A stretch of 40,104 nt of DNA from a virus, in IMG/VR virus record IMGVR_UViG_3300038565_000010, positions 1-40,104 of that record. One strand, given 5' to 3'. The translations under genes and the position numbers were made by a program. Shown piece by piece: positions 11,639 to 38,980 of this stretch; position 1 is the stretch's first letter; every line of letters starts with the position of its first letter. The notes beneath the pieces were generated by a model. It did not search any database, had not been told where the DNA came from, and saw nothing but the letters and a program-made list of their open reading frames with translations.

Positions 11639-11657
11639 AACGTGTTTTGTATGGGTG

Positions 11658-11686: not shown

Positions 11687-11719
11687 CACCTATTTGCACC
11701 TTTTAGTGTGGAAATTTGC

Positions 11720-13513: not shown

Positions 13514-13561
13514 GGCTCGACTGCTGGGAGCAATAGCTCCTTTGCCAACTGAGCCGTTTTT
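13514..13561 (+). terminator. Terminator of the lysogeny cassette
   Basis: Outer stem GGCTC/GAGCC (13514-13518 with 13551-13555) encloses an inner hairpin GGAGC-AATA-GCTCC (13527-13540) and is followed by G and five T (13557-13561). The T-tract is at the same time the start of the first late box. Confidence 0.6.
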
Positions 13562-13609
13562 GCCCGCGTTCAAAAGACGTTTTCCGCTGCGCCCCCGATT
13601 ATGGGGGCG
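13557..13609 (+). promoter_or_regulatory. Late promoter box 1 (lysis genes)
   Basis: Dyad TTTTGCCCGCGTTCAAAA (13558-13575), identical in three of four copies in the window. The dyad has arms TTTTG/CAAAA around CGCG. The -10-like GATTAT (13597-13602) begins 21 bp after the box and forms the exact loop of a 7-bp hairpin (CGCCCCC/GGGGGCG). No -35 is seen. Position corresponds to Mu Plys. The predicted start is about 36 nt before the holin gene. Confidence 0.72.
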
Positions 13610-13644
13610 TAGTCGTTTTGATTCATATAAAACCGGAGAACGTC

Positions 13645-13944
13645 ATGCCCCGCCTGATCGGATGGTTCTGCATCACCCTCGGCCTGCTCTGCGCTCTGGC
13701 GCTGCTTAACCCCCAGCAGCTGCCTGTTGTGCTCTACAAACTCTCCCTGGTCAGCCTCGGCGCTGTGTTGGGGTACTGGATTGATCGGTCGTTGTTTCCT
13801 TACGCCCGCCCGCATTGTTTCCTCTTTCCGCGTGAGCCGAATAGCTGTGGGCCCGAACATATCAATACCGCGATCAGCCTGCTGATGATCAGACGGGCTG
13901 TGGTGATCTTCGCCGTGATCCTTGGCCTGACACTGGGGCTATAG
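13645..13944 (+). CDS. Putative holin
   Basis: 99 aa with at least two hydrophobic helices near the N-terminus (LIGWFCITLGLLCALALLNP and VVLYKLSLVSLGAVLGYWI) and a third at the C-terminus (AVVIFAVILGLTLGL). The IDRSLFPYARPH segment is characteristic of a putative phage holin family found in transposable phages of proteobacteria. Holins form inner-membrane holes that time lysis and release the lytic enzyme. ATG 13645 has GGAGA upstream. First gene after late box 1 and 3 bp before the transglycosylase gene. Confidence 0.8.
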   Translation: MPRLIGWFCITLGLLCALALLNPQQLPVVLYKLSLVSLGAVLGYWIDRSLFPYARPHCFLFPREPNSCGPEHINTAISLLMIRRAVVIFAVILGLTLGL

Positions 13945-13946
13945 CG

Positions 13947-14594
13947 ATGCGAATGGATCGTATATTCCAGGCCATCATCCTGCTGGCGCTAACAGCTCTG
14001 ATCGTGTTTGCCGCCATCGGCTGCCAGCCCGCCTATGCGGACGATATCCCTGCGGATGCCAAGAGCTATCAGCGCACCCTTATCCGCACCTCTCATGCCT
14101 TCTGGGGTTTAGATGCCCCGGTGGCTACCTTTGCCGCGCAAATCCACCAGGAGAGCCGTTGGCGGGCCAATGCGCGCTCACATGTGGGGGCCGAAGGCCT
14201 GGCGCAATTCATGCCGGCCACATCGGACTGGTTTGCCGAGCTTTACCCAAGCCACCTTGGGGAACGGCAGCCCTATAACCCCGGCTGGGCCATGCGGGCC
14301 ATGGTGCTCTATGACAAGTGGCTGCATGCACGAATCCAGGCCGCGTGCCCCTGCGAGAAGTGGGCAATGGTGTTATCTGCGTACAACGGTGGCCTTGGCT
14401 GGGTTTACCGCGACAAAAAGCTGGCATCGAGTAAGGGGCTTGATTCGCTGGTCTGGTTCGATTCGGTGGAGCGGGTCAATGCGGGCCGCTCCGCTGCCAA
14501 CTGGGAAGAGAACCGGGGCTATCCGCGTCGCATCCTACTGCGGTGGGAGCCTCTCTATGAAATGGCCAATTGGGGCCTGGGAGTATGCCCATGA
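13947..14594 (+). CDS. Phage lytic transglycosylase (SLT domain)
   Basis: 215 aa endolysin-like enzyme that cleaves peptidoglycan. After an N-terminal hydrophobic segment (about 6-25) ending in a possible signal cleavage or lipobox site (AAIGC, PAYA), the SLT fold shows the catalytic Glu69 in IHQESRW, then GAEGLAQFMPATS and SAYNGGLGWV. Export by a signal peptide would make lysis partly Sec-dependent. It overlaps the spanin gene by 4 bp. A second ATG at 13953 is possible. Confidence 0.9.
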   Translation: MRMDRIFQAIILLALTALIVFAAIGCQPAYADDIPADAKSYQRTLIRTSHAFWGLDAPVATFAAQIHQESRWRANARSHVGAEGLAQFMPATSDWFAELYPSHLGERQPYNPGWAMRAMVLYDKWLHARIQAACPCEKWAMVLSAYNGGLGWVYRDKKLASSKGLDSLVWFDSVERVNAGRSAANWEENRGYPRRILLRWEPLYEMANWGLGVCP

Positions 14595-15007
14595 TTGCCC
14601 GCTGGATCGTGGCTGTATTGCTGAGTTCGCTACTCACCGGCGCCGGCACCTACTTCTGGGGTTACCACCACGGCGAAACCGCCGTGCAAGCCAAAACCAG
14701 CGCCGCGACGGTTACCAAACTTGGCGAAGCCCTTGCCGAGCATGCGGACCTGGTCAGGGATTCCAAAGCGGCGAGCCTGCGTATTTCCCAGCTGCTGGCC
14801 GACAAAGCCGAATTCGATCAACAAACCACTCAGGAGCTACGCGATGCACTCGATGAGAACGCTGGCCTGCGTGCTGATCTTCGCTATAGCGAGCGTGTCA
14901 TGCAGCAGCTGGTCGCCGCCAGAGAGCGTGCCATCAAAGCCGCAACCGGAGGCCTCGGCAACGCCATGCAGCGCCCACCTCCCATACCCGACCAACGACC
15001 CGAATGA
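14591..15007 (+). CDS. Inner-membrane spanin (Rz-like)
   Basis: 138 aa from ATG 14591 (ATGA overlap with the previous stop; ATG 14585 also possible). A single N-terminal transmembrane helix (WIVAVLLSSLLTGAGTYFW) is followed by a periplasmic, Ala/Glu-rich coiled coil (LADKAEFDQQTTQELRDALD) and a Pro-rich end. With the outer-membrane partner encoded in another frame of the same DNA it would fuse the two membranes at the last step of lysis. Confidence 0.85.
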   Translation: MIARWIVAVLLSSLLTGAGTYFWGYHHGETAVQAKTSAATVTKLGEALAEHADLVRDSKAASLRISQLLADKAEFDQQTTQELRDALDENAGLRADLRYSERVMQQLVAARERAIKAATGGLGNAMQRPPPIPDQRPE

Positions 15008-15107
15008 GATGCCTGTGACGCTGAAGATCATGTACGACCTATATGGCGAATGCGCCGGGCTGAAGTATGAGCAGTACCGGTTCCGAATGGACCAGGGGGA
15101 AGAATGA
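14844..15107 (+). CDS. Outer-membrane spanin lipoprotein (Rz1-like)
   Basis: 87 aa, read in a different frame within the 3' half of the Rz-like gene and running 100 nt past its end. It begins MHSMRTLACVLIFAIASVSC: a lipoprotein signal with lipobox ASVSC at residue 20, then a Pro/Ser-rich stretch typical of Rz1. The C-terminal extension (NEMPVTLKIMYDLYGECAGL) is longer than in lambda Rz1. GGAG stands 7 nt before ATG 14844; the next ATG (14853) is an alternative. Partner of the i-spanin at 14591. Confidence 0.85.
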   Translation: MHSMRTLACVLIFAIASVSCSSWSPPESVPSKPQPEASATPCSAHLPYPTNDPNEMPVTLKIMYDLYGECAGLKYEQYRFRMDQGEE

Positions 15108-15451
15108 GCGAGATCTCCATCGACATCGCCAAATTCTTAGGGCTGGTGCTGACACTGCTTGGCATGTTCTGGGGGATGAGCCGCCGACAGCAGGGCATGT
15201 TTGAGAAACACCTGGATGAGAAGTTCGCCATCCTCCAGCTCCGGCTTGAACAAATTGAAAAGAAGGAAGGCGACAACGGCAAAGAAGTCGCCAGGGTAGA
15301 GAGACAGCTGATGGAGTTACGCGCTGATCTACCCGAAAAGTATCTGCGACGAGAAGACTACATACGCGGCCAGAGTGTTATTGAAAGCAAGTTGGACGCG
15401 CTGGCCCTGAAACTGGAAAACATGCAAATCCGGGAGGCAAAACGTGATTGA
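15104..15451 (+). CDS. Membrane-anchored coiled-coil phage protein
   Basis: 115 aa. One N-terminal transmembrane helix (FLGLVLTLLGMFWGM) followed by a long charged coiled coil (QLRLEQIEKKEGDNGKEVAR, LPEKYLRREDYIRGQSVIES). Resembles the DUF2730/gp25-like proteins that sit between lysis and packaging genes in transposable phages; the exact family is uncertain. It overlaps Rz1 by 4 bp and the next gene by 8 bp. Confidence 0.72.
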   Translation: MSEISIDIAKFLGLVLTLLGMFWGMSRRQQGMFEKHLDEKFAILQLRLEQIEKKEGDNGKEVARVERQLMELRADLPEKYLRREDYIRGQSVIESKLDALALKLENMQIREAKRD

Positions 15452-15755
15452 TCATAACAAGGTGCGCCGCGAAGGCATGCGCTGGACGATCCTGCTCACC
15501 CTCAACCACGCCCGCCCGATCGGGGCGCATGAGCAGCTGATACTTCAGACCATTCAGGGGGTATACCCGGATGCCACTGCCACTGAAGTGCGGCGCGAGC
15601 TGGAATACCTGGACGACCGCAAACTGGTACAGGTAGAGAAGACCCCGGCTGGCGCCTGGCACGCCAAGCTGACCCACTACGGCGTGGATGTGGCCGAGTA
15701 CACCGTGGAGTGCCACCCCGGCATCGCCCGGCCTGAAAAATACTGGGAGGGCTGA
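15444..15755 (+). CDS. Winged-helix phage protein upstream of the terminase
   Basis: 103 aa. Sequence pattern suggests a winged helix (AHEQLILQTIQGVYPDATAT, EVRRELEYLDDRKLVQVEK, then AKLTHYGVDVAEY). Related small proteins stand just before the DUF3486 small terminase gene in Mu/BcepMu-like genomes (Mu gp26 region). It could help recognise the packaging site; this is inference. Confidence 0.72.
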   Translation: MIDHNKVRREGMRWTILLTLNHARPIGAHEQLILQTIQGVYPDATATEVRRELEYLDDRKLVQVEKTPAGAWHAKLTHYGVDVAEYTVECHPGIARPEKYWEG

Positions 15756-15757
15756 GT

Positions 15758-16276
15758 ATGCCCCGGGTATCCAAGGTGCAAACCCTCAATGATGGGGACA
15801 AAGACTGGCTGAATCAGGAGTTGGTGAAGCGCGGCTTTTCTGGCTATGAGGAGCTGGAAGCGCTTTGCCGGGACCGGGGCATCGATATCTCCAGTTCCAG
15901 CCTGCATCGCTATGGCAAGTCATTCCAGGATCGTCTGGATGCGGTGCGCCTGGTAACCGAACAGGCCCGAGCCGTGGTCGACAGCGCACCAGACGAAGAA
16001 GGTGCCGTGAATGAGGCGCTGATGCGTCTTATCCAGGAGAAGCTGTTCACCGTGGTGATGGAGGCTGAATTGAATCCTGGCGATATCTCCAAGGTGACCA
16101 AGGCGATCGCGGATCTGGGCCGTGCCAGTGTCAGCCAGAAACGGCTGGCGGCAGAGGTTCGTAAGCAGGCCCTGGAAGAAGCTGCAGCCAATGCTGAAAA
16201 CGCTGGACGCGCCCAAGGGCTGACCAAAGATGGCGTGGCCGCTCTGCGGGCTGCGATCATGGAGGGTATGGCGTGA
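15758..16276 (+). CDS. Small terminase subunit (DUF3486, Mu gp27-like)
   Basis: 172 aa. Matches DUF3486: N-terminal helix-turn-helix (ELVKRGFSGYEELEALCRDR, GIDISSSSLHRYG) and a long helical C-terminal part (SVSQKRLAAEVRKQALEEAA). Expected to bind phage DNA near the left end and start headful packaging from inside the host flank, as in Mu. It overlaps the large subunit gene by 4 bp. Confidence 0.88.
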   Translation: MPRVSKVQTLNDGDKDWLNQELVKRGFSGYEELEALCRDRGIDISSSSLHRYGKSFQDRLDAVRLVTEQARAVVDSAPDEEGAVNEALMRLIQEKLFTVVMEAELNPGDISKVTKAIADLGRASVSQKRLAAEVRKQALEEAAANAENAGRAQGLTKDGVAALRAAIMEGMA

Positions 16277-17832
16277 AACGCAATCCGATCGCTGAAGGCG
16301 TCCAGGAAGCCAATAACGCCGATGCCATTCTGCTCGGCTATCAGCAGCGTTGGGTGACAGACAATGCCGCCGTTAAGGTGATGGAGAAAAGTCGCCGGAT
16401 TGGTCTGTCCTATGCCGAAGCGGCGGATGATGTGCTCTACGCTGCCTCAGAAGAAGGCGCCAACGTCTATTACATTTCCTACAACAAGGAGATGACCCAA
16501 GGGTTCATCCAGGACTGTGCTGGCTGGGCCAAAGCCTACCAGGCCGCCGCTAGCCAGATTGAAGAATCGGTGATCGAGCAGGACGACCGCCAGATCCTTA
16601 CCTATACCATCAAGTTTGATTCCGGAAATAGTATTCAGGCGTTTACTTCCAACCCTCGCAACCTGCGTTCCAAGGGGCGCCCTGGTGAGCGGCTAGTGAT
16701 CGATGAGGCCGCATTCGTGGATGACATCGAGGAGCTGCTCAAAGCCGCCATGGCGATGACGATCTGGGGTGGCCAGATCCGCATCATCAGTACTCACAAC
16801 GGCGAAGATAACCCCTTTAACACTCTGATAAATGATATCCGTGCCGGTCGATATGACTACTCGCTGCATCGGGCGACCCTGGATGACGCGATGGCCGATG
16901 GTTTGTATAAGCGAATCTGCAAAGTGACCGGGCAGGCCTGGAGTCGGGATGGCGAGGCCACCTGGCGACAGCAGCTGATAAACCGCTACAAGCCCAACCA
17001 TGATGAAGAATTGTTCTGCATTCCCGCCATGGGCGGTGGCGCCTATTTGACCCGCGTAATGATTGAAGCCTGTATGGCGAAAGCGCCGGTGCTTCGTTTT
17101 GACGGCACCCGGGAATTCAATCAGCTCCCCGAGCCGCAGCGAGCGGCCATCATGCAGGACTGGATCAATGATGAGCTGCGCCCGCTGCTGAAGACCCTGG
17201 ACCCGGAATTACGCCATGCCCTGGGCATGGACTTCGCTCGCAGTGGCGATATGTCAGTGCTGGCCCCGATGGCTATCAGCAAGACGCTCCACCATACCGT
17301 GCCCTTCCTGGTGGAGCTGCACAACGTGCCCTTCAAGCAGCAGGAGCAAGTGCTATTTGCCTTGGGCGATGCGCTACCCCGGCTAAGTGGCGTCGCAATC
17401 GATAGCCGCGGTAATGGCCAATACATCGGGGAAGCGGCCCACGATAGATGGGGGGCACTGGTTGACCAGGTGATGGCTACCGAGCAGTGGTACCGGGAGC
17501 AAATGCCACGCTACAAGGCACGGTTTGAAGATCGCACCATCACTATCCCGAAGAATGATGATGTGCTGGAAGACCACCGAGCCTTCATCTTGGTTCGTGG
17601 TGTGGCCCGCCTGCCCGAGGGTAAAACCGACAAGAAAGGCAATCGCCATGGTGATTCGGCCATGGCTTGTGTGCTGGCTAACTGTGCCGCCGCCATGGAT
17701 GCCTGGACGGCGGATTACCAATCCACTGGCCGGCGTGCTGCATTGATGGACACGGACATGGCACAACCCGTCTCACTCACCGACACCGGCTTTGGCACCG
17801 TCGGTGGCGGCAACAATTTTGGAGGCTTCTGA
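16273..17832 (+). CDS. Terminase large subunit (Mu gp28-like)
   Basis: 519-aa packaging motor and nuclease. The ATPase shows a Walker A variant SRRIGLS (40-46), Walker B LVIDEA (141-146) and a coupling motif IISTHNGE. The RNase H-like nuclease begins around LGMDFARSGD and includes AIDSRGNG and the late acidic GDSAMACV. It would cleave and pump DNA into the prohead bound to the portal. The stop is immediately followed by the portal ATG. Confidence 0.93.
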   Translation: MKRNPIAEGVQEANNADAILLGYQQRWVTDNAAVKVMEKSRRIGLSYAEAADDVLYAASEEGANVYYISYNKEMTQGFIQDCAGWAKAYQAAASQIEESVIEQDDRQILTYTIKFDSGNSIQAFTSNPRNLRSKGRPGERLVIDEAAFVDDIEELLKAAMAMTIWGGQIRIISTHNGEDNPFNTLINDIRAGRYDYSLHRATLDDAMADGLYKRICKVTGQAWSRDGEATWRQQLINRYKPNHDEELFCIPAMGGGAYLTRVMIEACMAKAPVLRFDGTREFNQLPEPQRAAIMQDWINDELRPLLKTLDPELRHALGMDFARSGDMSVLAPMAISKTLHHTVPFLVELHNVPFKQQEQVLFALGDALPRLSGVAIDSRGNGQYIGEAAHDRWGALVDQVMATEQWYREQMPRYKARFEDRTITIPKNDDVLEDHRAFILVRGVARLPEGKTDKKGNRHGDSAMACVLANCAAAMDAWTADYQSTGRRAALMDTDMAQPVSLTDTGFGTVGGGNNFGGF

Positions 17833-19361: not shown

Positions 19362-20586
19362 CTATGGATCTGTTCCTTTCCAGGAACAGATCCAGTTCTT
19401 CCGCCGCAAGCTGAATATCCCGACCGAAAGCTGGACGGATATCTACAACCAGGAGCATGACTGGGCCTTCATGGTGGCAGGTGCTAACCGTGATGCGATT
19501 GTGGCGGATTTCCGGGAAGCGGTGGAAAAGGTAATCGCCGATGGGGGCACGCTCGAAGAGTTCCGCAAGGACTTTGACAAGATCGTTGCTCGCCACGGCT
19601 GGGACTACAACGGCGGGCGCTCCTGGCGAAGCCGGACCATCTACGAAACCAACCTGTTTTCCAGCTACTCAGCAGGACGCTATGAGCAGCTGCGGGCGGC
19701 GATCGGTGCCTTACCGTATTGGCAGTATCACCACAGTGATGCCGTTGAGCACCCGCGCCAGAAACACCTGGCATGGGACGGGATGATCCTGCGTGCGGAT
19801 GATCCCTGGTGGCAAACCCATTTCCCAATCAATGCCTGGGGTTGCCAGTGTTATGTGACAGGCCTGACTGAAGACGACCTGCGTGAGCTGGGCAAGGATG
19901 GCCCGGACGAGGCACCCGCCATGGAATGGGAAGAACGGATCATCGGGCAGCGCAGTCCTGACGGACCGAGAACGGTGCGCGTTCCTGCAGGCATCGACCC
20001 AGGCTTCGAGCATGCACCGGGTCGTAGCCGCCTGAAGAGTGCCATACCCCCTGAATACGATATGGAGCCGCCGCCAGGTGGTTTGCCCAGCCGTCGAGCC
20101 TCAGAGCCCTTGCCGCCGCCTCGCCCCATGCCGGCATCCAGACTGTTACCCCCGGATCTCGGCGAGGAGCAGTATGCCGAGGCCTTCCTGGAAGAGTTCG
20201 GCGCCACCCTTGATCGCCCGTCGCTTGTGAGGGATGTGCTGGGTGAGGCTTTGGTGATGGGGCAGGAGCTGTTTCAAGATCGCCGGACCGGCGAGTTGAA
20301 AGCCAACAAGCGCGGCCGTGGCCGCTTCATGAAGCTGCTGGCTGATGCGGTGCTGTCACCGGATGAGGTGTGGGCCAATATCGAATATCAGCATGCCAAG
20401 GGCCGGGCCGTAGTGCGCCGGCGTTATGTGGCGCGATTCCTGTTGCCGGGTGAGCAATTGCCGGCGCTGGCCGTGTTTGAGCATGGGGAAACCGGCTGGG
20501 GCGGTATCACCGTCTTTTCCAGCGACGTAGAGGGGTATCTGGAGCTGCAGCGGCACGGGGTGTTGCTGTACCGGCGGGAGGAATAA
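19348..20586 (+). CDS. MuF-type minor head protein with C-terminal PBECR-like nuclease domain
   Basis: 412 aa. The first half is the phage head morphogenesis (Mu gpF) domain: FRKDFDKIVARHGWDYNGG, TIYETNLFSSYSAGRY, HPRQKHLAWDGMIL, INAWGCQCYV. A Pro-rich linker (about 225-270) joins it to a C-terminal domain of about 130 residues (LKANKRGRGRFMKLLADAVL, EVWANIEYQHAKGRAVVRRR) that looks like the phage Barnase-EndoU-Colicin-RelE (PBECR2) nuclease group. MuF proteins sit in the head and are known carriers of toxin domains ejected with DNA. ATG 19348 with GGAGGAAG upstream is preferred to the longer frame. Confidence 0.85.
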   Translation: MPSVNYGSVPFQEQIQFFRRKLNIPTESWTDIYNQEHDWAFMVAGANRDAIVADFREAVEKVIADGGTLEEFRKDFDKIVARHGWDYNGGRSWRSRTIYETNLFSSYSAGRYEQLRAAIGALPYWQYHHSDAVEHPRQKHLAWDGMILRADDPWWQTHFPINAWGCQCYVTGLTEDDLRELGKDGPDEAPAMEWEERIIGQRSPDGPRTVRVPAGIDPGFEHAPGRSRLKSAIPPEYDMEPPPGGLPSRRASEPLPPPRPMPASRLLPPDLGEEQYAEAFLEEFGATLDRPSLVRDVLGEALVMGQELFQDRRTGELKANKRGRGRFMKLLADAVLSPDEVWANIEYQHAKGRAVVRRRYVARFLLPGEQLPALAVFEHGETGWGGITVFSSDVEGYLELQRHGVLLYRREE

Positions 20587-20590
20587 TAAA

Positions 20591-20614
20591 CCCCCGGCGC
20601 GGCCACACCGGGGG
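20591..20614 (+). other. Hairpin between the MuF-type and gpG-like genes
   Basis: A 7-bp perfect GC stem (CCCCCGG/CCGGGGG) with a 10-nt loop lies 5 bp after the MuF-type stop. No T-tract follows, so it is unlikely to be a full terminator; it may protect or process the late mRNA. The remaining 75 bp to the next gene hold only the ribosome binding site. Confidence 0.5.
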
Positions 20615-20689
20615 CACCGTGAGCGTGGGATTGGAGGCCCTGGCCGGGGCTGCCCGCTCAATCAGTACACCCCCAGTTTAGGAGGTTCC

Positions 20690-21253: not shown

Positions 21254-21303
21254 GAGGCTCTGTAAGGCCTGTCAGTGCCGTTGGCGCTACCGTTGCCGCA
21301 CCC

Positions 21304-21367
21304 AAACCCCGTTTCGAGGCCATAAAAGTTTTATAAAAGCGAATTGAGGCCTTCCCGCTCGGGGTTT
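21304..21367 (+). other. Nested hairpin upstream of late box 2
   Basis: Three nested inverted repeats: AAACCCCG/CGGGGTTT (21304-21311 with 21360-21367), AGGCC/GGCCT (21317-21321 with 21348-21352) and ATAAAA-G-TTTTAT (21322-21334). It lies in the 3' untranslated part after the gpG-like gene and probably ends or stabilises that transcript. No classical T-tract follows. Confidence 0.5.
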
Positions 21368-21412
21368 CTGCCTGAGTTGTCATTTCCAGTCTGAAAACCC
21401 GCAATCGGCAAA

Positions 21413-21464
21413 TTTTGCCCGCGTTCAAAAGACCCTGCACACCCCCCGGCACTAGTCTGCATCC
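21413..21464 (+). promoter_or_regulatory. Late promoter box 2 (protease/scaffold)
   Basis: Exact copy of the dyad TTTTGCCCGCGTTCAAAA at 21413-21430. A weak -10-like sequence (ACTAGT at 21451-21456 or TAGTCT at 21453-21458) begins 20-22 bp after the box. No -35. The predicted start near 21464 is about 33 nt before the protease/scaffold gene. Position corresponds to Mu PI, which drives gene I. Confidence 0.7.
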
Positions 21465-21496
21465 ATCACGTTGAAATACACACCAGAGTGGGTGGC

Positions 21497-22642
21497 ATGA
21501 ACGGACTGGAAATTTTCAAGGCAGGCATCCATACCGGCATGGACGGTAAGCAATACACCTTCACCGAAGAGGATGTGAAAGCCTCCGTGGAGGCCTACGA
21601 CCCGGCGCTGTTCAGTGCGCCGCTGGTGGTTGGTCACCCGAAAGTGGAAGACCCGGCCTATGGCTGGGTGTCTGGCCTGGCTTTCAAAGAAGGCATCGTC
21701 ACCGCTGATCCGGAAAAGGTGGAGCCGAACTTTGCCGAGATGGTGAACGATGGCCGGTTCCCCAAGATCAGCTCTTCTTTCTGGCCCCCGAATCACCCCT
21801 CCAATCCGAAGCCTGGCGTTTGGTACTTGCGCCATGTTGGCTTTCTTGGCGCTGCCGCTCCAGCAGTGAAGGGCCTGAAGCCTGCCAGTTTCTCTGACGA
21901 AGCCGCCGACCTGGTCACTATCGAGTTCGCTGATGCCGACTTTGAAAGCCGCTGGGTATTGGGCCGCCTTGCCCGTGGCCTGCGTGACTGGATGCTGGAG
22001 AAGTTCGGCGCCGAAACGGCTGACCAGGTTATTCCCGATTATCTGGCACGGGATGCAGAACGTGCCGGTGACCCGCAGCTGATGGAAAGCCAGCCGGCTT
22101 TTGCTGCCCCTACCGATACGACTCATCACCATAAGGAGCCCACCGTGGACCCGAACAAAGACAAAGAGCAACAGGCTGCGGACTTTGCGGAGCGTGAAAC
22201 TGCGTTGCAAACCCGCGAACAGGAACTGGCTGCCAAGGAACAGAAACTGGCGGAACAGGCCGCCGCTGCCCGTAAGGAAGACATTGCTGAATTCGCCGAG
22301 AAGTTGGTGAAGGAAGGCAAGGTGCTGCCCCGGGAAAAGGAAGGTCTGGTTGCCTTCATGGAAGCCCAGGACGACGAGACTGTCGTGGAGTTCGCCGAAG
22401 GCGATACCACCGTCAAGAAGCCTGGTAGCGACTGGCTGAATTCCTTCCTTGAAGGTCTGCCCCCGCGCGTTGACTTCAACGAGCGTGGAGCAGCGGAAGA
22501 AGACGGTAAGGCAACTGCCCAGTTTGCCGCACCGGCAGGTTATTCCGTCGATCCTGACTCACTTGCCATCCACAACAAGGCCCTGGCTTACCAGGCTAAA
22601 CATCAGTGTGACTACACCACCGCCATCAACGCGGTGAGCTAA
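21497..22642 (+). CDS. Prohead protease/scaffold (Mu gpI-like)
   Basis: 381 aa. N-terminal part matches the Mu-like prophage I protein family: HTGMDGKQYTFTEEDVKASV, APLVVGHPKVEDPAYGWV with the likely catalytic residues of a self-cleaving prohead protease, and FPKISSSFWPP. The second half has a charged coiled coil (LQTREQELAAKEQKLAEQAA) that would act as scaffold, as in Mu where an internal start makes the separate scaffold Z. ATG 21497 is preferred; GTG 21488 is possible. Confidence 0.88.
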   Translation: MNGLEIFKAGIHTGMDGKQYTFTEEDVKASVEAYDPALFSAPLVVGHPKVEDPAYGWVSGLAFKEGIVTADPEKVEPNFAEMVNDGRFPKISSSFWPPNHPSNPKPGVWYLRHVGFLGAAAPAVKGLKPASFSDEAADLVTIEFADADFESRWVLGRLARGLRDWMLEKFGAETADQVIPDYLARDAERAGDPQLMESQPAFAAPTDTTHHHKEPTVDPNKDKEQQAADFAERETALQTREQELAAKEQKLAEQAAAARKEDIAEFAEKLVKEGKVLPREKEGLVAFMEAQDDETVVEFAEGDTTVKKPGSDWLNSFLEGLPPRVDFNERGAAEEDGKATAQFAAPAGYSVDPDSLAIHNKALAYQAKHQCDYTTAINAVS

Positions 22643-22653
22643 AGGAGAGTTTC

Positions 22654-22992: not shown

Positions 22993-23012
22993 GCCAACCT
23001 GGAGAACCTTCA

Positions 23013-23930: not shown

Positions 23931-23954
23931 TCCCCCCCAGGCGGTGGCGAACTT

Positions 23955-23991: not shown

Positions 23992-24010
23992 CCTATTTCA
24001 GGAGAACGTG

Positions 24011-24743: not shown

Positions 24744-24744
24744 C

Positions 24745-25915: not shown

Positions 25916-26670
25916 AAGACTTTTCCCTCCAGGGCAAAGTGTACCTGGGCGCATCCCTTGCCGGCGGCAAACCCGGTGCCATGCACTGGGTGAACGATGC
26001 CGGCGTGCTGCAGATTTCCCCATCGGTTTCCCAGGAAACCCGGCAGGAAAGCCATTCCGGGCAGCGCCTTACCAGCGCCACCCTGAACACCTCCACCGAA
26101 GTGTCGTTCACGCTGACACTTTATCACGGCACTGCCAAGAATCTGGCGTTGGGCTTGTATGGCACCGAGCGCAGCATTGTGGCTGGTACGGTGACCGATG
26201 AGGAGATCCCCACTGTTGTTGATGGCGATGTGGTAGTGCTGGATCGTGGCGGCATCAGTGCCCTGACGATCGATGACAGCAACGCCACACCGACCACTCT
26301 GGTGGAAGATACCCATTACCGTATCGTCAGCGCTGACGGCGGTGTGCTGGAAATGCTGGATGTTGCGGCATTAACCCAGCCCCTGCTGGCCGACTACGAG
26401 AATGGTGCGGCCACCGACCTGACCATGTTCACGCAGCAGGCGCCTATCCGTTATCTGATGCTGGACGGCATGAACACCGTAGATGGTTCCGGTGAGAAGG
26501 TTCGGGTTCGCCTCTACAAGCTGAAGTTTAACCCGGTCTCCCAGCTGGACCTCATTAACAGCAGCTTCGGTGAGATTTCGCTGACCGGCACCTGCCTGTT
26601 TGAGTCTGCGGCGGCCATGGATGAAGCGCTGGGTGGCTTTGGCCGTATCGAGTTGCTGGAGGCCTCCTAA
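25912..26670 (+). CDS. Major tail tube protein (siphovirus type)
   Basis: 252 aa. Beta-rich: DFSLQGKVYLGASLAGGKPG, TSATLNTSTEVSFTLTLYHG, VRVRLYKLKFNPVSQLDLI and FGEISLTGTCLF fit tail tube proteins. No sheath gene is present next to it, so the tail is non-contractile. It stands directly before the frameshifted chaperone and tape measure genes, the canonical siphovirus order. Confidence 0.82.
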   Translation: MKDFSLQGKVYLGASLAGGKPGAMHWVNDAGVLQISPSVSQETRQESHSGQRLTSATLNTSTEVSFTLTLYHGTAKNLALGLYGTERSIVAGTVTDEEIPTVVDGDVVVLDRGGISALTIDDSNATPTTLVEDTHYRIVSADGGVLEMLDVAALTQPLLADYENGAATDLTMFTQQAPIRYLMLDGMNTVDGSGEKVRVRLYKLKFNPVSQLDLINSSFGEISLTGTCLFESAAAMDEALGGFGRIELLEAS

Positions 26671-27185
26671 TGGCGAAGGTGGTGCCGCAAGAGCAACAGC
26701 CTGACGCCCAGGAGGAGAATGACCTGGAAATCCTGCACCCCGAGCAAGAAGTGGTAATTGCCGGGGTGAAGGTAGTCATTCGTGAATATGGCTTTGTTGA
26801 GGGGCTGAAGATCCGCACCAAAGCAAAGCCATTCATTCATGGCCTGCAAGAGATCCTCAGTGGTGGCCAGCCATCGCTGGAAGAGATCCTGGACCTGCTG
26901 GCCGAGCACCTTGATCTGGCCCTGGAGCTGGTGGCTGATTCTGCCGATATGCCCCTGGAGTGGGTTCATTCGCTCAGTGAGCATGAGGGGGACGTGCTGC
27001 TCTACACCTGGTGGAGTGTGTGCGGCCCTTTTTTTGTTCGGTCTGCTCAAAGACGGGTGGTCAGCCGAAAACTGCAAGACCGGTTAGAAAAGGCAAGCCA
27101 GTCCGCTGGCGAGAAATCTACACCACCCTCATCGGAGCAGGCCACCGAGCTGACCAAATCGGAGACTACACCGAGCGACAAATAA
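26670..27185 (+). CDS. Tail assembly chaperone, upstream frame (lambda gpG-like)
   Basis: 171 aa. N-terminal beta/helix domain (EQEVVIAGVKVVIREYGFVE) followed by helices (LEEILDLLAEHLDLALELVA) and a hydrophilic tail. Position between tube and tape measure genes is that of lambda G. The frame contains T-TTT-TTT at 27029-27035 in the correct register for a -1 slip (codons TTT TTT, residues 121-122); ribosomes that slip read on into the second frame. Normal termination is at 27185. Confidence 0.82.
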   Translation: MAKVVPQEQQPDAQEENDLEILHPEQEVVIAGVKVVIREYGFVEGLKIRTKAKPFIHGLQEILSGGQPSLEEILDLLAEHLDLALELVADSADMPLEWVHSLSEHEGDVLLYTWWSVCGPFFVRSAQRRVVSRKLQDRLEKASQSAGEKSTPPSSEQATELTKSETTPSDK

Positions 27186-27316
27186 TGCTGTATTTCGATG
27201 CAGCATTACGCCGTGAGCGGCGCCAACGGGTTGCCCGGTTAAATGATGTCCGGATGGCCTTTGGTGCGAATAATGACGAGGCGACAAGCTATATAAAATC
27301 GCTCACGGATAACTGA
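27011..27316 (+). CDS. Tail assembly chaperone, -1 frame extension (lambda gpT-like)
   Basis: Open in the -1 frame relative to the upstream gene. It carries a conserved-looking helical segment [20 protein letters not shown] and [20 protein letters not shown] that resembles the T-part of tail chaperones in transposable siphoviruses. There is no good ribosome binding site for an independent start at the 5' end, and the conserved part begins well upstream of the only internal ATG (27185, TAATG with the upstream stop). It is therefore most likely made as a fusion by frameshifting at 27029-27035. Reinitiation at 27185 would yield a 43-aa fragment instead. Confidence 0.75.
27029..27035 (+). promoter_or_regulatory. 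Slippery heptamer T TTT TTT (programmed -1 frameshift)
   Basis: Seven consecutive T followed by G, in register so that both P- and A-site tRNAs read TTT before and after a -1 shift. The slip joins the sequence ending CGPFF to CSVCSKTGG in the second frame. No equally good heptamer occurs elsewhere in the overlap (27011-27185). Confidence 0.72.
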
Positions 27317-27319
27317 CTG

Positions 27320-27345
27320 GCGGCCATGGAGGCCGCTATTTTTTT
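27320..27345 (+). terminator. Terminator before the tape measure gene
   Basis: Perfect 6-bp stem GCGGCC/GGCCGC with loop ATGGA, followed by TA and seven T (27339-27345). It ends the protease-to-chaperone late unit. Its T-tract is shared with late box 3. Confidence 0.8.
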
Positions 27346-27392
27346 GCCCGCGTTCAAAAGACGATTCCCGCCAGACCCGCCATGATCCCCCC
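27341..27392 (+). promoter_or_regulatory. Late promoter box 3 (tail genes)
   Basis: Exact dyad TTTTGCCCGCGTTCAAAA at 27342-27359. CATGAT (27381-27386) is the -10-like sequence, 21 bp after the box. The predicted start falls at about 27393, on the A of the tape measure ATG. No -35 and no ribosome binding site are visible. The position before the tail genes parallels Mu PP. Confidence 0.7.
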
Positions 27393-30209
27393 ATGGCAGA
27401 CCAAGACCTCAAACTCGCGCTCCGAATGCAGGCTGACCTTAAACAAGGTCGGCAAGAGCTGGATGCGCTCGATACCGCCCTGGATGACGTTGGGGAAAGC
27501 GCTGATCGCACCAGCAAGCGATTGGACAACCTCGATGGCAAGGGCCCCGCCAAAGTCAAACAGGATCTGGATGCTGCCACCAAGTCCGCGCAGAACATGG
27601 ACGCCGCTGTCGATAAGGCAAACAAAAGCGTTAATGGCATGGGCGGCAAGAACCGCAAGAGCCCGGTTAGTGGCCTAAGTGACGATGTCGATGAAGCTTC
27701 TGACGCCATGCGCCGTGGCGGCCTTTCTGCAGGTGAATACAAGCAAGCCATGCGGCAGCTGCCGGCTCAGATCACCGATATCACCACAAGCCTGGCATCT
27801 GGCATGCCGATCTGGATGGTGGCCATCCAGCAAGGCGGCCAGCTGAAGGATTCCTTTGGTGGGGTCAAGCCCGCCGCGCGCGCCCTGATTTCCTCCATCA
27901 AGCCCATGCCGCTACTGTTTGGCGGGGTTGCCGCCGCCGTGGGTTTGGCTGTTGTCGCCCAGCAGAAAGGGGCCAATGAAGCGCGCCGGTATAACGAGGC
28001 GCTGATTCTTACCGGCAACATTGCAGGAACCAGCTCAGATCAGCTTAGTGACATGGCTCGCCGGATCGATGATGTAGCGGGCACCCAGGGCAATGCTGCT
28101 GCAGTCCTGGCAGAAGTGGCCCGCACCGGCAAAGTGGCAGCTGACCAGATCGAGCAGGTTAGCCGTGCCGCGATCGCCATGGAGATCGCTACCGGCAAGG
28201 CGATTTCCAGCACGATTGATGAGTTCGTCAAGTTAGCGGAAGACCCCGTCCAGGCCATTGCTGACCTGAATAACGAGTACCACTTCCTGGATGCATCGGT
28301 GTACTCGAATATCGTGGCCTTGAAGCAACAGGGCCGCGAAGTTGAGGCAGTTAAGCTGGCGGTCGAAGCCTACGCCGATGTGGTGGAAAGCCGAGCCAAA
28401 GAGATATCTGACGATATCGGTCTGCTGGAACGTGCTTGGAAAGGCGTGAAGGATGCCGCCAGCGAGGCCTGGGATAGTGCCCTGAATCTTGGCCGTGAAA
28501 GGACAAGGCAGCAGGAACTGGATGATCTGAATGAGCGCATCAAGCTGTTCGAGCAGCTCAATGAGAAAAGCCTTTTCCAGCGAGGAGAAAGGGACGCCCA
28601 GATCGAGGCCGATAAAGCACGACGTGATGCGTTGGCCCAAGAGATCGAAGATGAGGAGCGCCTAGCTAAAGAGAAGGCCGAAGCCCGCCAACTGGAAGCT
28701 GAAGCCATTAAGGCCATGGCTGAGGTGGACAAACTCACCCGTTCCAATCTGAGCAATGAAGAAAAGCGGGTCAAGGCCATCAAAGCCTACCGTGAGCAGC
28801 TGGACGCTATTCGTGAAGCCAACCCCTCTGATAGTCGCCTGGATGAAGCCACGGTTGCCAAGAACATTGCTGGCATCAATGAGCGCTACGAGACAAAAGA
28901 CCCGGAGGCCGATCGCCGCGAACGGGAGGCCAAGCAGCGCCAGAAAGAGATGGAGTCCTTCGTCGCCCAGCTTGAAAAGCAGGCGGCGGTGGCAGGCAAA
29001 TCCAAGGATGCGACCCGTGCCTATGAGATCAGCGAGAAAGGCCTGACTGGGGCGCTATTGCAGCGAGCGCAAGCCGCCAACGCCGTTATCACCCAGCAGG
29101 AAGAGCTGAACCAGGCGATGGACGATGCGGAAACACTGAATGGCATCGCCGCCCGCTTGCTGTCGCTGGATGGAAACAGCTTTGAAGCCAGGGGCAAAGA
29201 GCTGGAGCAGGAGTTCGCCAAGCTGCTGGCGCGCCTGGAAGCGCGCGGTGATGAAGCCGGTAAAGCCCTGGTCAGGGAGCTAATCAATAAGGAGCAGCTG
29301 CAGGCTGGCCTGGATGACTTTCAGCGGCAAATCGACACCATCGCCCGGGGCGCCAGCAGCCAGCGGGATCTGCTCTCTTCCCAGTTTGAAGCCGGCCTGA
29401 TCTCCCAGCCTGAGTACCGTGAAGGTCTGATGGATATCGACAGCAACGCCGTTTCGCAGCTGGAGCAGATGCGTGATGCGGCGGTTGAATATGCCCAGGC
29501 CATGGGTGACCCGACCATCCTGCAGAACTTCGACGCCATGGTGCTGGGCTACCAGCGGGTGAATGATCAGACCCAGCGCTTCCTGGCTGACGGCCAACAG
29601 ATCAACGAAATGCTTTCCACCGGTTTGTCGGATGCGCTCTTGAACGTCGCTGACGGCACTCAATCTGCCGGAGAGGCATTCCGCCAGTTCGCCGCTGACT
29701 TCCTGCGTCAGCTCGCCCAAATGATTCTCAAGCAGATGATCTTCAACGCGATCAGTGGCGCCACCGGTGCGGGAGGTATTGGTGGTGCTGTTGCCGGCGC
29801 TGCTGCGGGTGCATTTGCCGATGGCGGCTACACCGGGCCCGGCGGTAAGTATCAGCCTGCAGGTGTGGTCCACCGTGGTGAGTATGTGCAGCCCCAAGAG
29901 GCACTGCGTGAGCCTGGTGCCCTGGAGTTTATGCACGCCTTCCGTCGCGAGGGCATGCGATCGCTGGCGCGGTTCCAGGGCTATGCCGATGGCGGCCTGG
30001 TGGGTGCCTCACCAACGATCAGCGATAGCCCTGCTGCCCTGATGGGCCAGGCAGTACCCAAAGCGGATCTGCACCAGCGTCTGCTGCCGATCCTGGACGA
30101 TGACCTGATTGCAGGTGCCATGAAGGGCCCTGCCGGCGAGCAGATCCTCGAACTTCATATCAGCCGGAACCCCAGCAAGTTCCGAAGCTTGCTCAACGGA
30201 GGCAGTTAA
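27393..30209 (+). CDS. Tail tape measure protein
   Basis: 938 aa. Matches the prophage tail length tape measure family related to lambda [21 protein letters not shown] and a hydrophobic pair of helices ([20 protein letters not shown]) near residues 140-200. A long coiled coil follows (350-700), then a C-terminal lambda-type region ([39 protein letters not shown]) and a Gly-rich end with [20 protein letters not shown]. It sets tail length; 938 residues would correspond to a tail of roughly 140 nm by the usual proportionality. No Shine-Dalgarno sequence precedes the ATG. Confidence 0.9.
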
Positions 30210-31243: not shown

Positions 31244-31245
31244 CC

Positions 31246-34747: not shown

Positions 34748-34756
34748 GAGAACGCT

Positions 34757-34987
34757 ATGTGGATCCAGCTCGCAATCATCGTCATCAGTGCTGTCGTCAG
34801 TTATCAGATGCGGCCCAAGCCCGCCAAGCCAAAGCCGGCGGCGTTTTCTGATTTCGATTTCCCCATGGCAGAAGAAGGCACCCCCCAGTATGTGATCTTC
34901 GGTGACTGCTGGGTGGAGGACTGGATGGTCCTGGCGGTGGGCAACTACCGCACCACAGCCATCCGCAAGAAGGGGGGCAAGAAGTAA
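34757..34987 (+). CDS. Small tail-module protein with N-terminal hydrophobic helix
   Basis: 76 aa. One hydrophobic helix at the start (WIQLAIIVISAVVSYQM), a Pro/Lys linker and a compact end (YVIFGDCWVEDWMVLAVGNY). AGGAG precedes the ATG. Its stop overlaps the next ATG (TAATG). Small proteins of this design are regular members of the BR0599/tip cassette and are thought to help assembly; function unproven. Confidence 0.72.
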   Translation: MWIQLAIIVISAVVSYQMRPKPAKPKPAAFSDFDFPMAEEGTPQYVIFGDCWVEDWMVLAVGNYRTTAIRKKGGKK

Positions 34988-35190
34988 TGGTGGTTGTCTA
35001 TCCCCGACACATTCGCGCTGCAGGGCTGTGCATGTCCGGTGCCCGGCGTTGGTTTCCTCAGTACGGCATGACCTTCGAGGCATGCCGGCGCGGTGAGGTA
35101 ACGGTAGAGATGCTGGAAGCGACTGGTGATCAGTTTGCCCTGCAGGTTGCCGAGATTGCCCGCCAGGAGGTGAATGATGGGCGGAAGTAG
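34987..35190 (+). CDS. Small tail-module protein
   Basis: 67 aa: VYPRHIRAAGLCMSGARRWF near the start and VEMLEATGDQFALQVAEIAR near the end. Coupled to the upstream gene by TAATG and overlapping the tip protein gene by 17 bp. Conserved position in this tail cassette; function unknown. Confidence 0.7.
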   Translation: MVVVYPRHIRAAGLCMSGARRWFPQYGMTFEACRRGEVTVEMLEATGDQFALQVAEIARQEVNDGRK

Positions 35191-37402
35191 TAAGCGCCAG
35201 ACAGTCGGGTACCGCTACTTCTTCGACCTGCAGATGGGTATCTGCCGTGGGTCAGCGATCGATCAGGCCGTGGATGAGCTGGTGGAGGTGAGGGTCGGCG
35301 ATCGGACCGCCTGGAAAGGCAGCCTGACCGAGTCTGGATCAGTAGCTATCAACAAGTACAACCTCTTCGGCGGGGATGAAGGCGAAGGCGGCGTAGAGGG
35401 CCGCTTGTACGTGATGATGGGTGAGCCCAGTCAGGTAGCACCTGGTCGCTTGGCGAACCTGCTTGGAGGCGTGTCACCGGGTTTTCGTGGGGTCTTCACT
35501 CTGTTCTTTACCGGCATGGTTGCCGCTATCAACCCTTACCCGAAGAAGTGGTCCACCCGACAGCGGCGGCTGCTTAAGGGGTGGGACCGTTCTGCCTGGT
35601 ACACCCCAAAGCTGAAGATCGAGCTGGCCGGTGGCCAGATCCACGCCATGAATGGGGTCCATATCCTCATGGAGTGCCTGACAAACCGTGACTGGGGCCG
35701 AGGCCTTGAGCCGTCGCGATTGAACCTGGTGAGCTACCAGGAGGCGGCTGACAAGCTGTTCGATGAAGGGTTCGGGTTGTGCCTGCGCTGGAGCCGGCAG
35801 GAAAGCCTGGCGGACTTCATGCAGCAGGTGCTGGATCATATTGGCGGCGCGCAATACACAGACCCTGAAACGGGCCTGCTGACGCTCGATCTTATCCGTG
35901 GTGACTACGACCCTCAGACGCTTCCGCTGTATACCTACGACACCGGTCTGCTGAGCGTGGTAGAGGATGATTTCGCCAATCCTGCCGTATCCGCCAATGA
36001 GATAGTGGTGAAGTACCGCGACCCGATCACCAACAAGGAGCGGGTCGCTCGAGAGCGAAATATCGGCGCGATTCGTGCTGCAGGTGTGAAGCATACCGAG
36101 ACGGTCAATTATCCCGGGATTCCCACTTACAGCTTGGCCAGCCGTATCGCTCGCCGGGATCTTAATGCCAAACAGCCAGGCCTGCGGCGCTTCAAAGTGC
36201 GCCTGGATCGGCGCGGCCTGAAACTGAAGCCCGGCGGGTTGCTGCGTATCTCGGCACCGGATAAGGGGGTTGCCGATATCGTGCTGCGGGTCGGTCGGAT
36301 TGAGGATGGCCCGCTGGAGTCTGGCGAGATCGTTGTCACCGGTGTCCAGGACGTGTTCGGCCTGCCAGCCACCCAGCTCACCAGCGAGCAGGGTTCCGAA
36401 TGGCAGGCGCCGGACTACACCACGCAGCCAGCAGCTGACCAGGTCGCTCTGGAGTTTTCTTATCGCGATATCACGCTGGAGATGAGCCCGGGGGATCTGG
36501 GTACCGTCGAGAGCGATAGCGGTTGGGTCGGCGCCCTGGGCGTGCGCCCCACCGGCTTGTCCTGGAACTACGGCCTGGCTACCCGAACCGGCGCAGATCC
36601 GTATGAAATAGCAGACCAGGGCGAGTGGTGCCCGACGGGCCTGCTGTCTGCAGATCTGGAGCCAGGCGAAACCAGTTTCATGCTGACCAACTGGCTGGAT
36701 ATCGAGCTGGTTGCGGTCGGCACTGCCGGCATGGTCGGCGGTGAGCTGTTCCGGGTAACCAGCCTGGATGAGGAAACTGGCCTGGTAGAAGTCGATCGCG
36801 GGTGCATCGATACCGTGCCTGTGAAACACCTGGCAGGCACGCGAGTGTGGTTCTACGAGAGCTATGCAGCGATCGATCCCGCTGAGTACGTGGACGGGGA
36901 AACCGTCAACCTGAAGCTGCTGACGCGCACCAGCTCAGGTGAGCTGGATGAAAGCCTGGCGCCGTCCAGCGTGGTGACCCTGGACCAGCGGCAATTCCGA
37001 CCCTATCCCCCCGCAAACGTGCGCCTGAATGGCGAGTATTGGCCGTCTGAGGTGGTTGGTGCGGTTTTGATGCAGTGGGCCCACCGCGACCGCCTGCTGC
37101 AGCACGACGTGCTTGTGCCCTGGACTGATGGAGATATCGGGCCCGAGGCCGGAACGTCCTACCAGGCGACCCTGCTGCAGGGCGCCAGCCAGATCCAGCA
37201 GGAGAACACCGCTGGCACCACCACAACCCTGACCCCCACCGAGGATGGCCAGTACACGGTCACCGTGCTGAGCCAGCGCGATGGGCTGGATAACTGGCAG
37301 ACGTTTGAGCACACCTTTAACTGGTATCGCACTGAACCCATGGCCACGGAGGCAGGAGACATCATGCTGACCGAGGCCGGCGAAGAGATGATCGTGGAGT
37401 AA
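35174..37402 (+). CDS. Central tail tip protein (J/GTA-like, Phage-tail_3)
   Basis: 742 aa. GSSKRQTVGYRYFFDLQMGI at the start, a middle part with NRDWGRGLEPSRL and WSRQESLADFMQQVLDHIGG, and a C-terminal part with fibronectin-like beta segments (PYPPANVRLNGEYWPSEVVG) fit the putative phage tail protein family related to lambda J. It would form the tail spike hub that carries the fibre and penetrates the envelope. AGGAGG lies 3 nt before ATG 35174 and 6 nt before ATG 35177, so the second may be used. Confidence 0.83.
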   Translation: MMGGSSKRQTVGYRYFFDLQMGICRGSAIDQAVDELVEVRVGDRTAWKGSLTESGSVAINKYNLFGGDEGEGGVEGRLYVMMGEPSQVAPGRLANLLGGVSPGFRGVFTLFFTGMVAAINPYPKKWSTRQRRLLKGWDRSAWYTPKLKIELAGGQIHAMNGVHILMECLTNRDWGRGLEPSRLNLVSYQEAADKLFDEGFGLCLRWSRQESLADFMQQVLDHIGGAQYTDPETGLLTLDLIRGDYDPQTLPLYTYDTGLLSVVEDDFANPAVSANEIVVKYRDPITNKERVARERNIGAIRAAGVKHTETVNYPGIPTYSLASRIARRDLNAKQPGLRRFKVRLDRRGLKLKPGGLLRISAPDKGVADIVLRVGRIEDGPLESGEIVVTGVQDVFGLPATQLTSEQGSEWQAPDYTTQPAADQVALEFSYRDITLEMSPGDLGTVESDSGWVGALGVRPTGLSWNYGLATRTGADPYEIADQGEWCPTGLLSADLEPGETSFMLTNWLDIELVAVGTAGMVGGELFRVTSLDEETGLVEVDRGCIDTVPVKHLAGTRVWFYESYAAIDPAEYVDGETVNLKLLTRTSSGELDESLAPSSVVTLDQRQFRPYPPANVRLNGEYWPSEVVGAVLMQWAHRDRLLQHDVLVPWTDGDIGPEAGTSYQATLLQGASQIQQENTAGTTTTLTPTEDGQYTVTVLSQRDGLDNWQTFEHTFNWYRTEPMATEAGDIMLTEAGEEMIVE

Positions 37403-37405
37403 GAC

Positions 37406-38488
37406 ATGGCTAAGCAATGGTCGGAGATACGAACAGAAAACCCTGCGGGCCCACTCACTGGCGCGGAGGTCACCGTGGCCGTCCAGGGCGGGCAGACGGT
37501 GGGGCTGACCTACCAGCAGCTGAAGGACTGGGTGAAGTTCAAGAACAAACTGGATGCCACCGCTGACCCCGGTGTGAACGATGACAGCACCGCTGGCTAT
37601 GAGCCTGGTAGCCGGTGGTTGAACAACGCGGTCTCGCCTAAACGCTGGTGGATCTGCACCGACGCTACTGCTGGGGCGGCGGTTTGGGATGTGCTGTCGC
37701 TGTCGGAAGATGAGTTGGGCACAGCCGCGCTGGTCAACACTGGTACCGGGGCGGGAGATGTGCCGCTGAACAGCGATCTGGGCACTGCTGCTTATGAGCA
37801 GGCCAATCAACTACCTTTCACGAGCCAGTTGAAATTCTCAGGGCGCCTAACGGACGCTGAATACGGGATCAACATAGGGGGGGGGTTTGAGAATGTTGGC
37901 GCCGTTTTCACGCCCTATAACGGCTCGACAGTGTCTGACGCAGGCCAGTTTATACACAATAATTCGGATTACGGCGGTACTGCGGGGAACATGACTCAAG
38001 CCGTGATAGACCTGATCGAGGCCCAAGGTCGAGATAGTTCAAGGTTAAGGTACGGGCCGGAGTTCCGAATAGCAGAGTTCCTTGCCGGCGGCGGGACCAA
38101 CGCTTCGTCCAGTGGGCCATTCGGCACTAAATATGCCTTGATAGTGCCCGACTCGAACGATTTGGGGCTCGGTGCGGATAACTTCACTACGGTTTGTTTT
38201 TGGGTGGCCGCAGTGGACAATCCGGTCTACCTCGATTTGGTGTCCGGGAACATGAGGCATTGGGTCAATGGCGTAGAGCCCGCCGAGTCTACATATGTCC
38301 TGAGCCCGGCGGATGGTTGGGTTTTCTACCGGGTAACCGAACAATCAAACCTTGGCTATACGACAAGAACTCCGCGGGTCGCTGCTAGCCTAGGGGACCG
38401 AATTCGACTTGCGCTCCCCTCTAAGTTCGCGGGTTTTTTCGATCCTGGTATCTATCTTTCCCCCTACATCAATTCGGTGCCTTTGTGA
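37406..38488 (+). CDS. Tail fibre / receptor-binding protein
   Basis: 360 aa. The N-terminal 150 residues (LTYQQLKDWVKFKNKLDATA, PGSRWLNNAVSPKRWWICTD, LNSDLGTAAYEQANQLP) look like an attachment domain common to many phage fibres. The remaining 200 residues differ in composition: codons such as ATA, AGG, CTA become frequent and GC falls, typical of an exchanged receptor-binding domain. A G9 tract (37877-37885) lies at that junction. The next gene, coupled by TGATG, is probably its chaperone. Confidence 0.75.
   Translation: MAKQWSEIRTENPAGPLTGAEVTVAVQGGQTVGLTYQQLKDWVKFKNKLDATADPGVNDDSTAGYEPGSRWLNNAVSPKRWWICTDATAGAAVWDVLSLSEDELGTAALVNTGTGAGDVPLNSDLGTAAYEQANQLPFTSQLKFSGRLTDAEYGINIGGGFENVGAVFTPYNGSTVSDAGQFIHNNSDYGGTAGNMTQAVIDLIEAQGRDSSRLRYGPEFRIAEFLAGGGTNASSSGPFGTKYALIVPDSNDLGLGADNFTTVCFWVAAVDNPVYLDLVSGNMRHWVNGVEPAESTYVLSPADGWVFYRVTEQSNLGYTTRTPRVAASLGDRIRLALPSKFAGFFDPGIYLSPYINSVPL
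37877..37885 (+). repeat. G9 homopolymer in the tail fibre gene
   Basis: Nine consecutive G encode three Gly as GGG GGG GGG (codons 158-160), although GGC or GGT is favoured elsewhere. One extra G would give GTT TGA right after the tract and stop translation at once; one fewer leads to a stop about 30 codons later. Slippage could therefore switch the receptor-binding part off. Confidence 0.6.
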
Positions 38489-38928
38489 TGCGTATACTTA
38501 GAGACGGCGTTTACTTTTCGGAAGGCGATGACCTTGGTTTTGTGGCGTCAATCGACAATGACGACCCCTCCCTCTACAGCTTCCACCCCGACGACTACCG
38601 GGCCAATAAACTGGCTGAAATCAAATCTGCTTGCGAGGCAGAGCTTTCTGCCCTGCAGGCAGAGTATCCGGAATCTGAGGTGATGAGCTGGGACAAGCAG
38701 GAGCGTGAGGCCAGAGCGTTTGTGGCTGATTCATCTGCTTCGGTGCCCTTGATTTCCAGTCTAGCGTCAGTGCGCGGTATCGGCGTGCCAGACCTAGCTA
38801 ACCGCATCATCCAGAAGGCGGACGCTTACACTGCAGCCATAGGGCAGGCATTGGGCAGACGTCAGAAACTGGAAGATCAACTCAACGCCATGACTAGCTG
38901 GGAGGAAATGGCAGAGATCAACTGGTGA
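38488..38928 (+). CDS. Tail fibre assembly-like protein
   Basis: 146 aa. ATG 38488 shares its A with the TGA of the fibre gene. Short beta-rich N-terminus (ILRDGVYFSEGDDLGFVASI) and a helical C-terminal domain (ACEAELSALQAEYPESEVMS, SWDKQEREARAFVADSSASV, RIIQKADAYTAAIGQALGRR) as found at the end of many prophage tail fibre assembly proteins. Probably the cognate chaperone for the fibre. Confidence 0.75.
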   Translation: MRILRDGVYFSEGDDLGFVASIDNDDPSLYSFHPDDYRANKLAEIKSACEAELSALQAEYPESEVMSWDKQEREARAFVADSSASVPLISSLASVRGIGVPDLANRIIQKADAYTAAIGQALGRRQKLEDQLNAMTSWEEMAEINW

Positions 38929-38980
38929 TTTTGCCCCCGTTCAAAAGCCACCAGCAAAGAGGCCTCCATATAGTGGAGGC
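38929..38980 (+). promoter_or_regulatory. Late promoter box 4 (com-methylase unit)
   Basis: TTTTGCCCCCGTTCAAAA at 38929-38946, one base different from the other three copies, begins directly after the TGA of the fibre chaperone gene. TATAGT (38969-38974) is a 5/6 match to -10 at 22 bp after the box. It includes most of the loop of the terminator hairpin. The position before com and a DNA-modification gene equals that of Mu Pmom. Confidence 0.7.

Follow-up and report, generated by a model that had tools for sequence, protein, structure and literature searches.

The question raised by the virus record IMGVR_UViG_3300038565_000010 is how the late genes of this phage are switched on, and by which protein. 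The record was analysed over its whole length of 40,104 nt (the window). In phage Mu the late promoters Plys, PI, PP and Pmom are activated by protein C, which is made from a middle operon driven by the Mor-activated promoter Pm. The first-pass annotation had claimed that this four-promoter layout is mirrored here, with copies of one dyad box at four sites and nowhere else, before lysis, the gene I homologue, the tail genes and com-methylase.

The window was scanned for the box TTTTGCCCGCGTTCAAAA with up to three mismatches allowed. Three copies are exact (0 mismatches) and the fourth carries one mismatch, a change of the central G to C. All four lie on the plus strand at the positions originally given (Table 1), the dyad form TTTTG-NN-CGCG-NN-CAAAA was confirmed, and no fifth copy was found in the 40,104 nt at ≤3 mismatches. 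The number expected by chance was small, with a mean of 0.01 over shuffles, none of which reached four copies.

Profile searches placed the boxes before the four gene groups that had been named, with the exception that the first gene of the tail unit is tape measure and not P. The genes after box 1 are holin, endolysin and Rz, and the holin ATG lies 69 nt past the box. The protease gene is preceded by a leader that contains an SD-like GGGTGG, and the true start of the Com-like gene is probably internal, near 39177. Two overlapping frames, 26670-27185 and 27011-27316, precede the tape measure gene and resemble a tail assembly chaperone pair, which may be produced via frameshifting. At the other end of the window an acyl-CoA dehydrogenase gene was found at 1-1776 on the plus strand (PF12806, PF00441 and others); this is probably host chromosome flanking the left end of the prophage, which would place that end past 1776 but before the Mor gene at 1964.

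Table 1. Coordinates of the boxes, promoter elements, hairpins and genes of the predicted late regulon in the window.
Feature	Position	Strand	Basis or remark
Mor/C-family activator, last gene of leftward early operon	1964..2347	-	PF08765 E=8e-30; PHROG late transcriptional activator
Box 1, predicted activator dyad before lysis unit	13558..13575	+	exact copy; same box precedes holin in relatives
12-bp terminator-like hairpin, -10 in loop region, then CGTTTTGATT	13586..13613	+	kept in relatives
-10 GATTAT, late promoter 1	13597..13602	+	starts +21 from box end
Holin, first gene of lysis/packaging unit	13645..13944	+	phrog_1528 E=1.5e-33
Box 2, predicted activator dyad before head (gene I) unit	21413..21430	+	exact copy
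-10 TAGTCT, late promoter 2	21453..21458	+	starts +22 from box end
Head maturation protease (gene I homologue)	21497..22642	+	phrog_976 E=1e-118
Terminator-like hairpin	27318..27338	+	T-run 27339-27345 runs into TTTT of box 3
Box 3, predicted activator dyad before tail unit	27342..27359	+	exact copy
-10 CATGAT, late promoter 3	27381..27386	+	starts +21 from box end
Tail tape measure protein	27393..30209	+	phrog_24 E=5.5e-169; ATG at predicted +1
Box 4, predicted activator dyad before com-methylase unit	38929..38946	+	one mismatch; same place in relatives
13-bp inverted repeat AAAGAGGCCTCCA-TATAG-TGGAGGCCTCTTT around promoter 4 -10	38956..38986	+	sequence; stem score
-10 TATAGT, late promoter 4	38969..38974	+	starts +22 from box end
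Com-like zinc-ribbon translational regulator	39060..39302	+	PF10122 E=1e-8
D12-class adenine DNA methyltransferase	39313..40104	+	PF02086 E=1e-25

The region downstream of the box was examined in 17 non-redundant copies from relatives, non-redundant meaning that the downstream 40 nt were less than 85% alike. The most conserved positions of sigma-70 -10 elements are the A at hexamer position 2 and the T at position 6. A hexamer of this form, NANNNT, is found in all 17, beginning 21 nt past the box in 12 copies and 22 nt past it in 5, against an expectation of about 0.7 per offset and counts of 0-2 at the remaining offsets in the spacer and further; the only other peak, at offset 0, arises from a conserved GAC. 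The -10-like hexamers that had been placed 20-22 bp past the four boxes of the window were retained in every case, with the offsets now fixed at +21 or +22 and the hexamers of copies 2 and 4 settled as TAGTCT and TATAGT. The view that there is no -35 did not hold. GAC or TAC, rarely GCC or GAG, stands immediately 3' of the box, and GAC, TAC or GCC here is in register with the GAC of TTGACA at a spacer of 17-18 bp, so that a degenerate -35 remains. These -35 elements are very poor and a sigma-70 consensus scan lists none of the four late promoters, which indicates that the promoters need activation.

With the hexamer placed at -12 to -7 the box spans approximately -51 to -34 (or -52 to -35), with its centre at -42.5 to -43.5. 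The distance from the dyad centre to the start of the poor -10 is 30-31 bp, compared with 31 bp at Plys and Pmom in the Mu genome. At Pm the dyad bound by Mu Mor extends from -51 to -36, around a centre at -43.5 (PMC4287176).

When 2.9 million viral contigs were scanned for exact matches, the box was recovered in 23 stretches on 19 contigs, with one to four copies each and every copy on one strand, the late one; a reversed-pattern control gave zero copies in the same 19 contigs. Their positions beside the gene groups named in the first-pass annotation proved non-random. In the fully read contigs the box precedes holin, protease, tape measure or Com/methylase, with a sole exception in contig G009. 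There the fourth box (L077 3860, minus strand) is followed by TAC and then by CAGACT-GGCCGC-ATG before a gene that stands at the right end instead of com-methylase; it encodes a 116-aa protein without assigned function and appears from its sequence to be leaderless. The site of box 4 is occupied alike in G006, G008, G010, G015 and G038, in several of them with 2-3 mismatches. Whole-genome specificity of the box was measured in the relative with the closest Mor among sequenced genomes, an Alcanivorax MAG. Its 3.6 Mb genome contains only four boxes (≤2 mismatches), all inside a prophage, at spacings of 7.8, 6.1 and 11.8 kb compared with 7.9, 5.9 and 11.6 kb here, and the fourth is again 5' of Com and methylase.

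Named divergent phages were searched de novo, without supplying the box, for the 18-mers that match best among the regions 5' of holin, protease and tape measure. Triples resembling TTTTCGCYCCTTCCAAAA came from Fc02 and UMP151 and scored 47/54, compared with a maximum of 44 among random controls. In B3 the search returned TTTTCG-N6-CGAAAA at the holin, protease and tape-measure starts with a score of 44, equal to the best random control, and a scan of the whole B3 genome found the perfect dyad at exactly those three starts. Dyads were recovered at just two of the three starts in phiSHP3, KP12, PhiKM and YPCBV-1. The de novo 18-mer search gave no clear box in D3112, Komp_PAO1_1 and Leptolyngbya phage Lsp-JY19, in which Mor-like genes are present, and no convincing triple in Mu. 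As no stretch was conserved across a broad Mor alignment, viral contigs were searched from their protease loci, which yielded TTTTGACACGTGTCAAAA three times in one contig, at the holin, protease and tape-measure starts, and further dyads including TTGGAAACCAGTTTCAAA, TGCGGACCGCGGTCCCAA and CCTTAAAGCGCTTTAAAC. In nearly all of the divergent dyads NANNNT stands 21 or 22 nt past the box.

Chromohalobacter phage YPCBV-1 carries identical copies of CGCTGAAGTCCTTCGCCT before holin and protease (L063 10512 and 18662), with NANNNT at 22 nt, and this is probably its late box, judging from position and spacing. The box of the Stenotrophomonas phages L092 and L098 is CTTGGAACGCGTGCAAAT (L092 11182 and 19250); its reverse complement resembles the box of the window at 14/18 positions by eye, suggesting that the dyad, with its slight asymmetry, can take either orientation with respect to the promoter.

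By RNA-seq, the late genes of Fc02 fall into three clusters: a first that begins with holin-endolysin, a second made up mainly of structural genes, and a third (PMC9936078). The three Fc02 dyads precede these clusters, for which that paper gives the first gene of cluster one only, clusters two and three being matched to protease and tape measure via its description and gene map. The Pseudomonas phages B3 and Fc02 have the genome layout of the phage of the window: their early operon is inverted and has Mor as its final gene, their late clusters lie at holin, protease and tape measure, and their dyads are of the same geometry. They differ from it in having other box sequences and three boxes only, and in B3 com-methylase precedes the tape measure gene without a box of its own.

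The candidate activator is the record's sole PF08765 protein and matches the Mor structure 1rr7 across the HTH (E=1.4e-6). Its assignment to the Mor family was correct in the first-pass annotation, but the frame, taken there as 1964-2308, runs to 2347, with a likely ATG at 2308. Across 13 Mor types box similarity was correlated with Mor identity (Mantel r=0.55, p ~2e-4). The partial correlation was 0.45-0.53 when controlling for TnpA, TnpB, protease or portal, and 0.52 (p=2e-4) when controlling for the neighbouring GemA. Given Mor, the correlations of TnpA, TnpB, protease, portal and GemA with the box were -0.09 to 0.14 (GemA r=0.08, p=0.21). The box sequence therefore tracks Mor, and not transposase, portal, protease or GemA. 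This covariation is the best available stand-in for a binding assay, short of proof.

The specificity is not a simple helix-to-box code, as contig G002 carries the box of this phage yet has a Mor recognition helix (MTERGARKVI) closer to that of phiSHP3. A one-residue code pairing a recognition-helix Arg with the central CG was dropped, since G002 and L198 fit it poorly, and so was a code based on the recognition segment, which alone was not better than the rest of Mor (partial r 0.25). Mor was not found in the box-bearing contigs G004, G009, G011, G013 and G015, probably because these contigs are fragments.

The boxes are most readily explained as operators of four Mor-activated, class-II-type sigma-70 late promoters that would operate with no second regulator C, a reading to which a probability of approximately 0.9 is assigned. 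From the observed positions, recurrence, geometry and Mor covariation of the boxes we infer that Mor would bind and activate at these sites. The boxes could instead be late operators read by another phage or host regulator, such as GemA, a CII-like protein or an HTH early protein, and further early DNA-binding proteins do exist, for example an HTH_3 protein at 11636-12100. This is unlikely, as box similarity follows Mor after GemA is controlled for and the position of the box is that of the Mor/C site of Mu (PMC4287176).

Terminator-like hairpins are found at or beside copies 1, 3 and 4, and T-rich sequence follows the stems of copies 1 and 4. The repeats might accordingly be terminators or insulators between transcription units and not activator sites. 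That is very unlikely, because the 18-bp dyad is conserved whereas the hairpins vary in sequence and position, and because it leaves the fixed-spacing -10 and the Mor covariation unexplained; the hairpins look like a feature added at the same junctions. That the boxes are repressor sites silencing the late units in the lysogen has a slighter chance still, since repression could likewise act through a dyad that overlaps the -35 region, but the very poor -35s mean that the promoters need activation, a repressor-like gene lies elsewhere and the box sequence tracks Mor.

Activation by Mor, the preferred explanation of the boxes, can be set out as a sequence of predicted steps. Mor would be expressed from the final gene of the early operon, and its dimer would bind the 18-bp dyad. 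The bound dimer would recruit RNA polymerase to the weak -10 (NANNNT) with its remnant -35 (GAC/TAC), so that the lysis/packaging, head, tail and com-methylase units would be switched on together, by direct action of Mor on the late promoters without a C step.

The hairpins were analysed further at 60 promoters. The -10 often sits between complementary arms, as in GCCGCC-NANNNT-GGCGGC-ATG, and some stems take in the ATG, as in CATGCCGCC-CACCAT-GGCGGCATG. The mean stem was 4.17 bp, compared with 2.82 bp when the 3' arms were swapped between promoters (sd 0.15, maximum 3.45 in 2000 trials), and this excess indicates covariation. It is plausible that the hairpins insulate each late unit from upstream transcription.

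At promoter 3 the arrangement is CATGAT-CCCCCC-ATG, with six nt from the -10 to the tape-measure ATG at 27393. A start approximately 7 nt past the -10 would coincide with the A of this ATG, and the tail-unit transcript is consequently predicted to be leaderless. The tape measure or protease ATG of relatives is likewise 33-34 nt from the box end. In a set of 59 non-redundant Mu-like phages, the protease start codon is preceded at 6 or 7 nt by NANNNT in 34, compared with 26/424 for other long-ORF starts at the same loci. GGCNNC directly 5' of the start occurs in 41% compared with 1%, and SD-like motifs occur in 15% of the 34 phages compared with 46-52% of the rest. The start codons were assigned by rule, so single cases may err, but this alone does not explain the peak. 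Leaderless mRNAs would therefore be produced from the tail unit here and, in about half of the relatives, from the gene-I unit, a prediction based on start codons 6-7 nt past the -10. The annotated start of the B3 protease ORF36 (L096, NC_006548; 19857 within 19835-19890) lies within the predicted promoter, downstream of the box and upstream of the -10; on sequence grounds the ATG 34 nt past the box is the likelier start, and a leaderless one.

In leaderless genes the start codon would be hidden by the hairpin when RNA reads through from upstream, while transcripts from the late promoter would begin at the AUG and thus escape the hairpin. Together these two effects would allow the protein to be made only from properly activated late transcription. 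A tentative extension, somewhat short of an even chance, is that a widespread class of Mu-like phages expresses head protease, tape measure and sometimes lysis genes as leaderless mRNAs from Mor promoters, guarded by hairpins against read-through. No report of leaderless late mRNAs in Mu-like phages was found in the literature searched, the coverage of which was incomplete.

When the system is compared with Mu, the lysis, gene I, tail and com-modification units each stand behind a predicted Mor/C-family dyad, as at the Mu late promoters. The dyad sequence is different (the Mu Pmom site is TTATGCCCCAATAA), the third unit starts at tape measure where that of Mu starts at P, a methyltransferase is found where Mu has Mom, some transcripts are predicted to be leaderless, and a separate C gene is absent from the record. 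The resemblance to Mu Pm lies in the activator, a Mor homologue encoded last in the early operon, and in a dyad at a similar position, but unlike at Pm, Mor here appears to control all late units directly. The proposed mirroring of Mu thus stands for the four units and the geometry, but not for the start of the tail unit or for the Mor-then-C cascade, which seems to be replaced by one Mor. It is highly probable that the system works like, and mainly belongs to, the Mor/C-activated late regulon of Mu, of which it is classed as a variant because it has no separate C gene and a shifted tail unit.

The Mu paradigm is extended to a general rule recognisable in sequence, as Mu-like late units can be found by the pattern dyad-21/22 nt-NANNNT even where the dyad has diverged. 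Each box is a ready substrate for studying the evolution of Mor-family specificity. A cascade shorter than that of Mu is suggested, leading from early Mor straight to the late genes, and a large and apparently unremarked set of leaderless virion-gene mRNAs is predicted, possibly with an inbuilt safeguard against expression by read-through.
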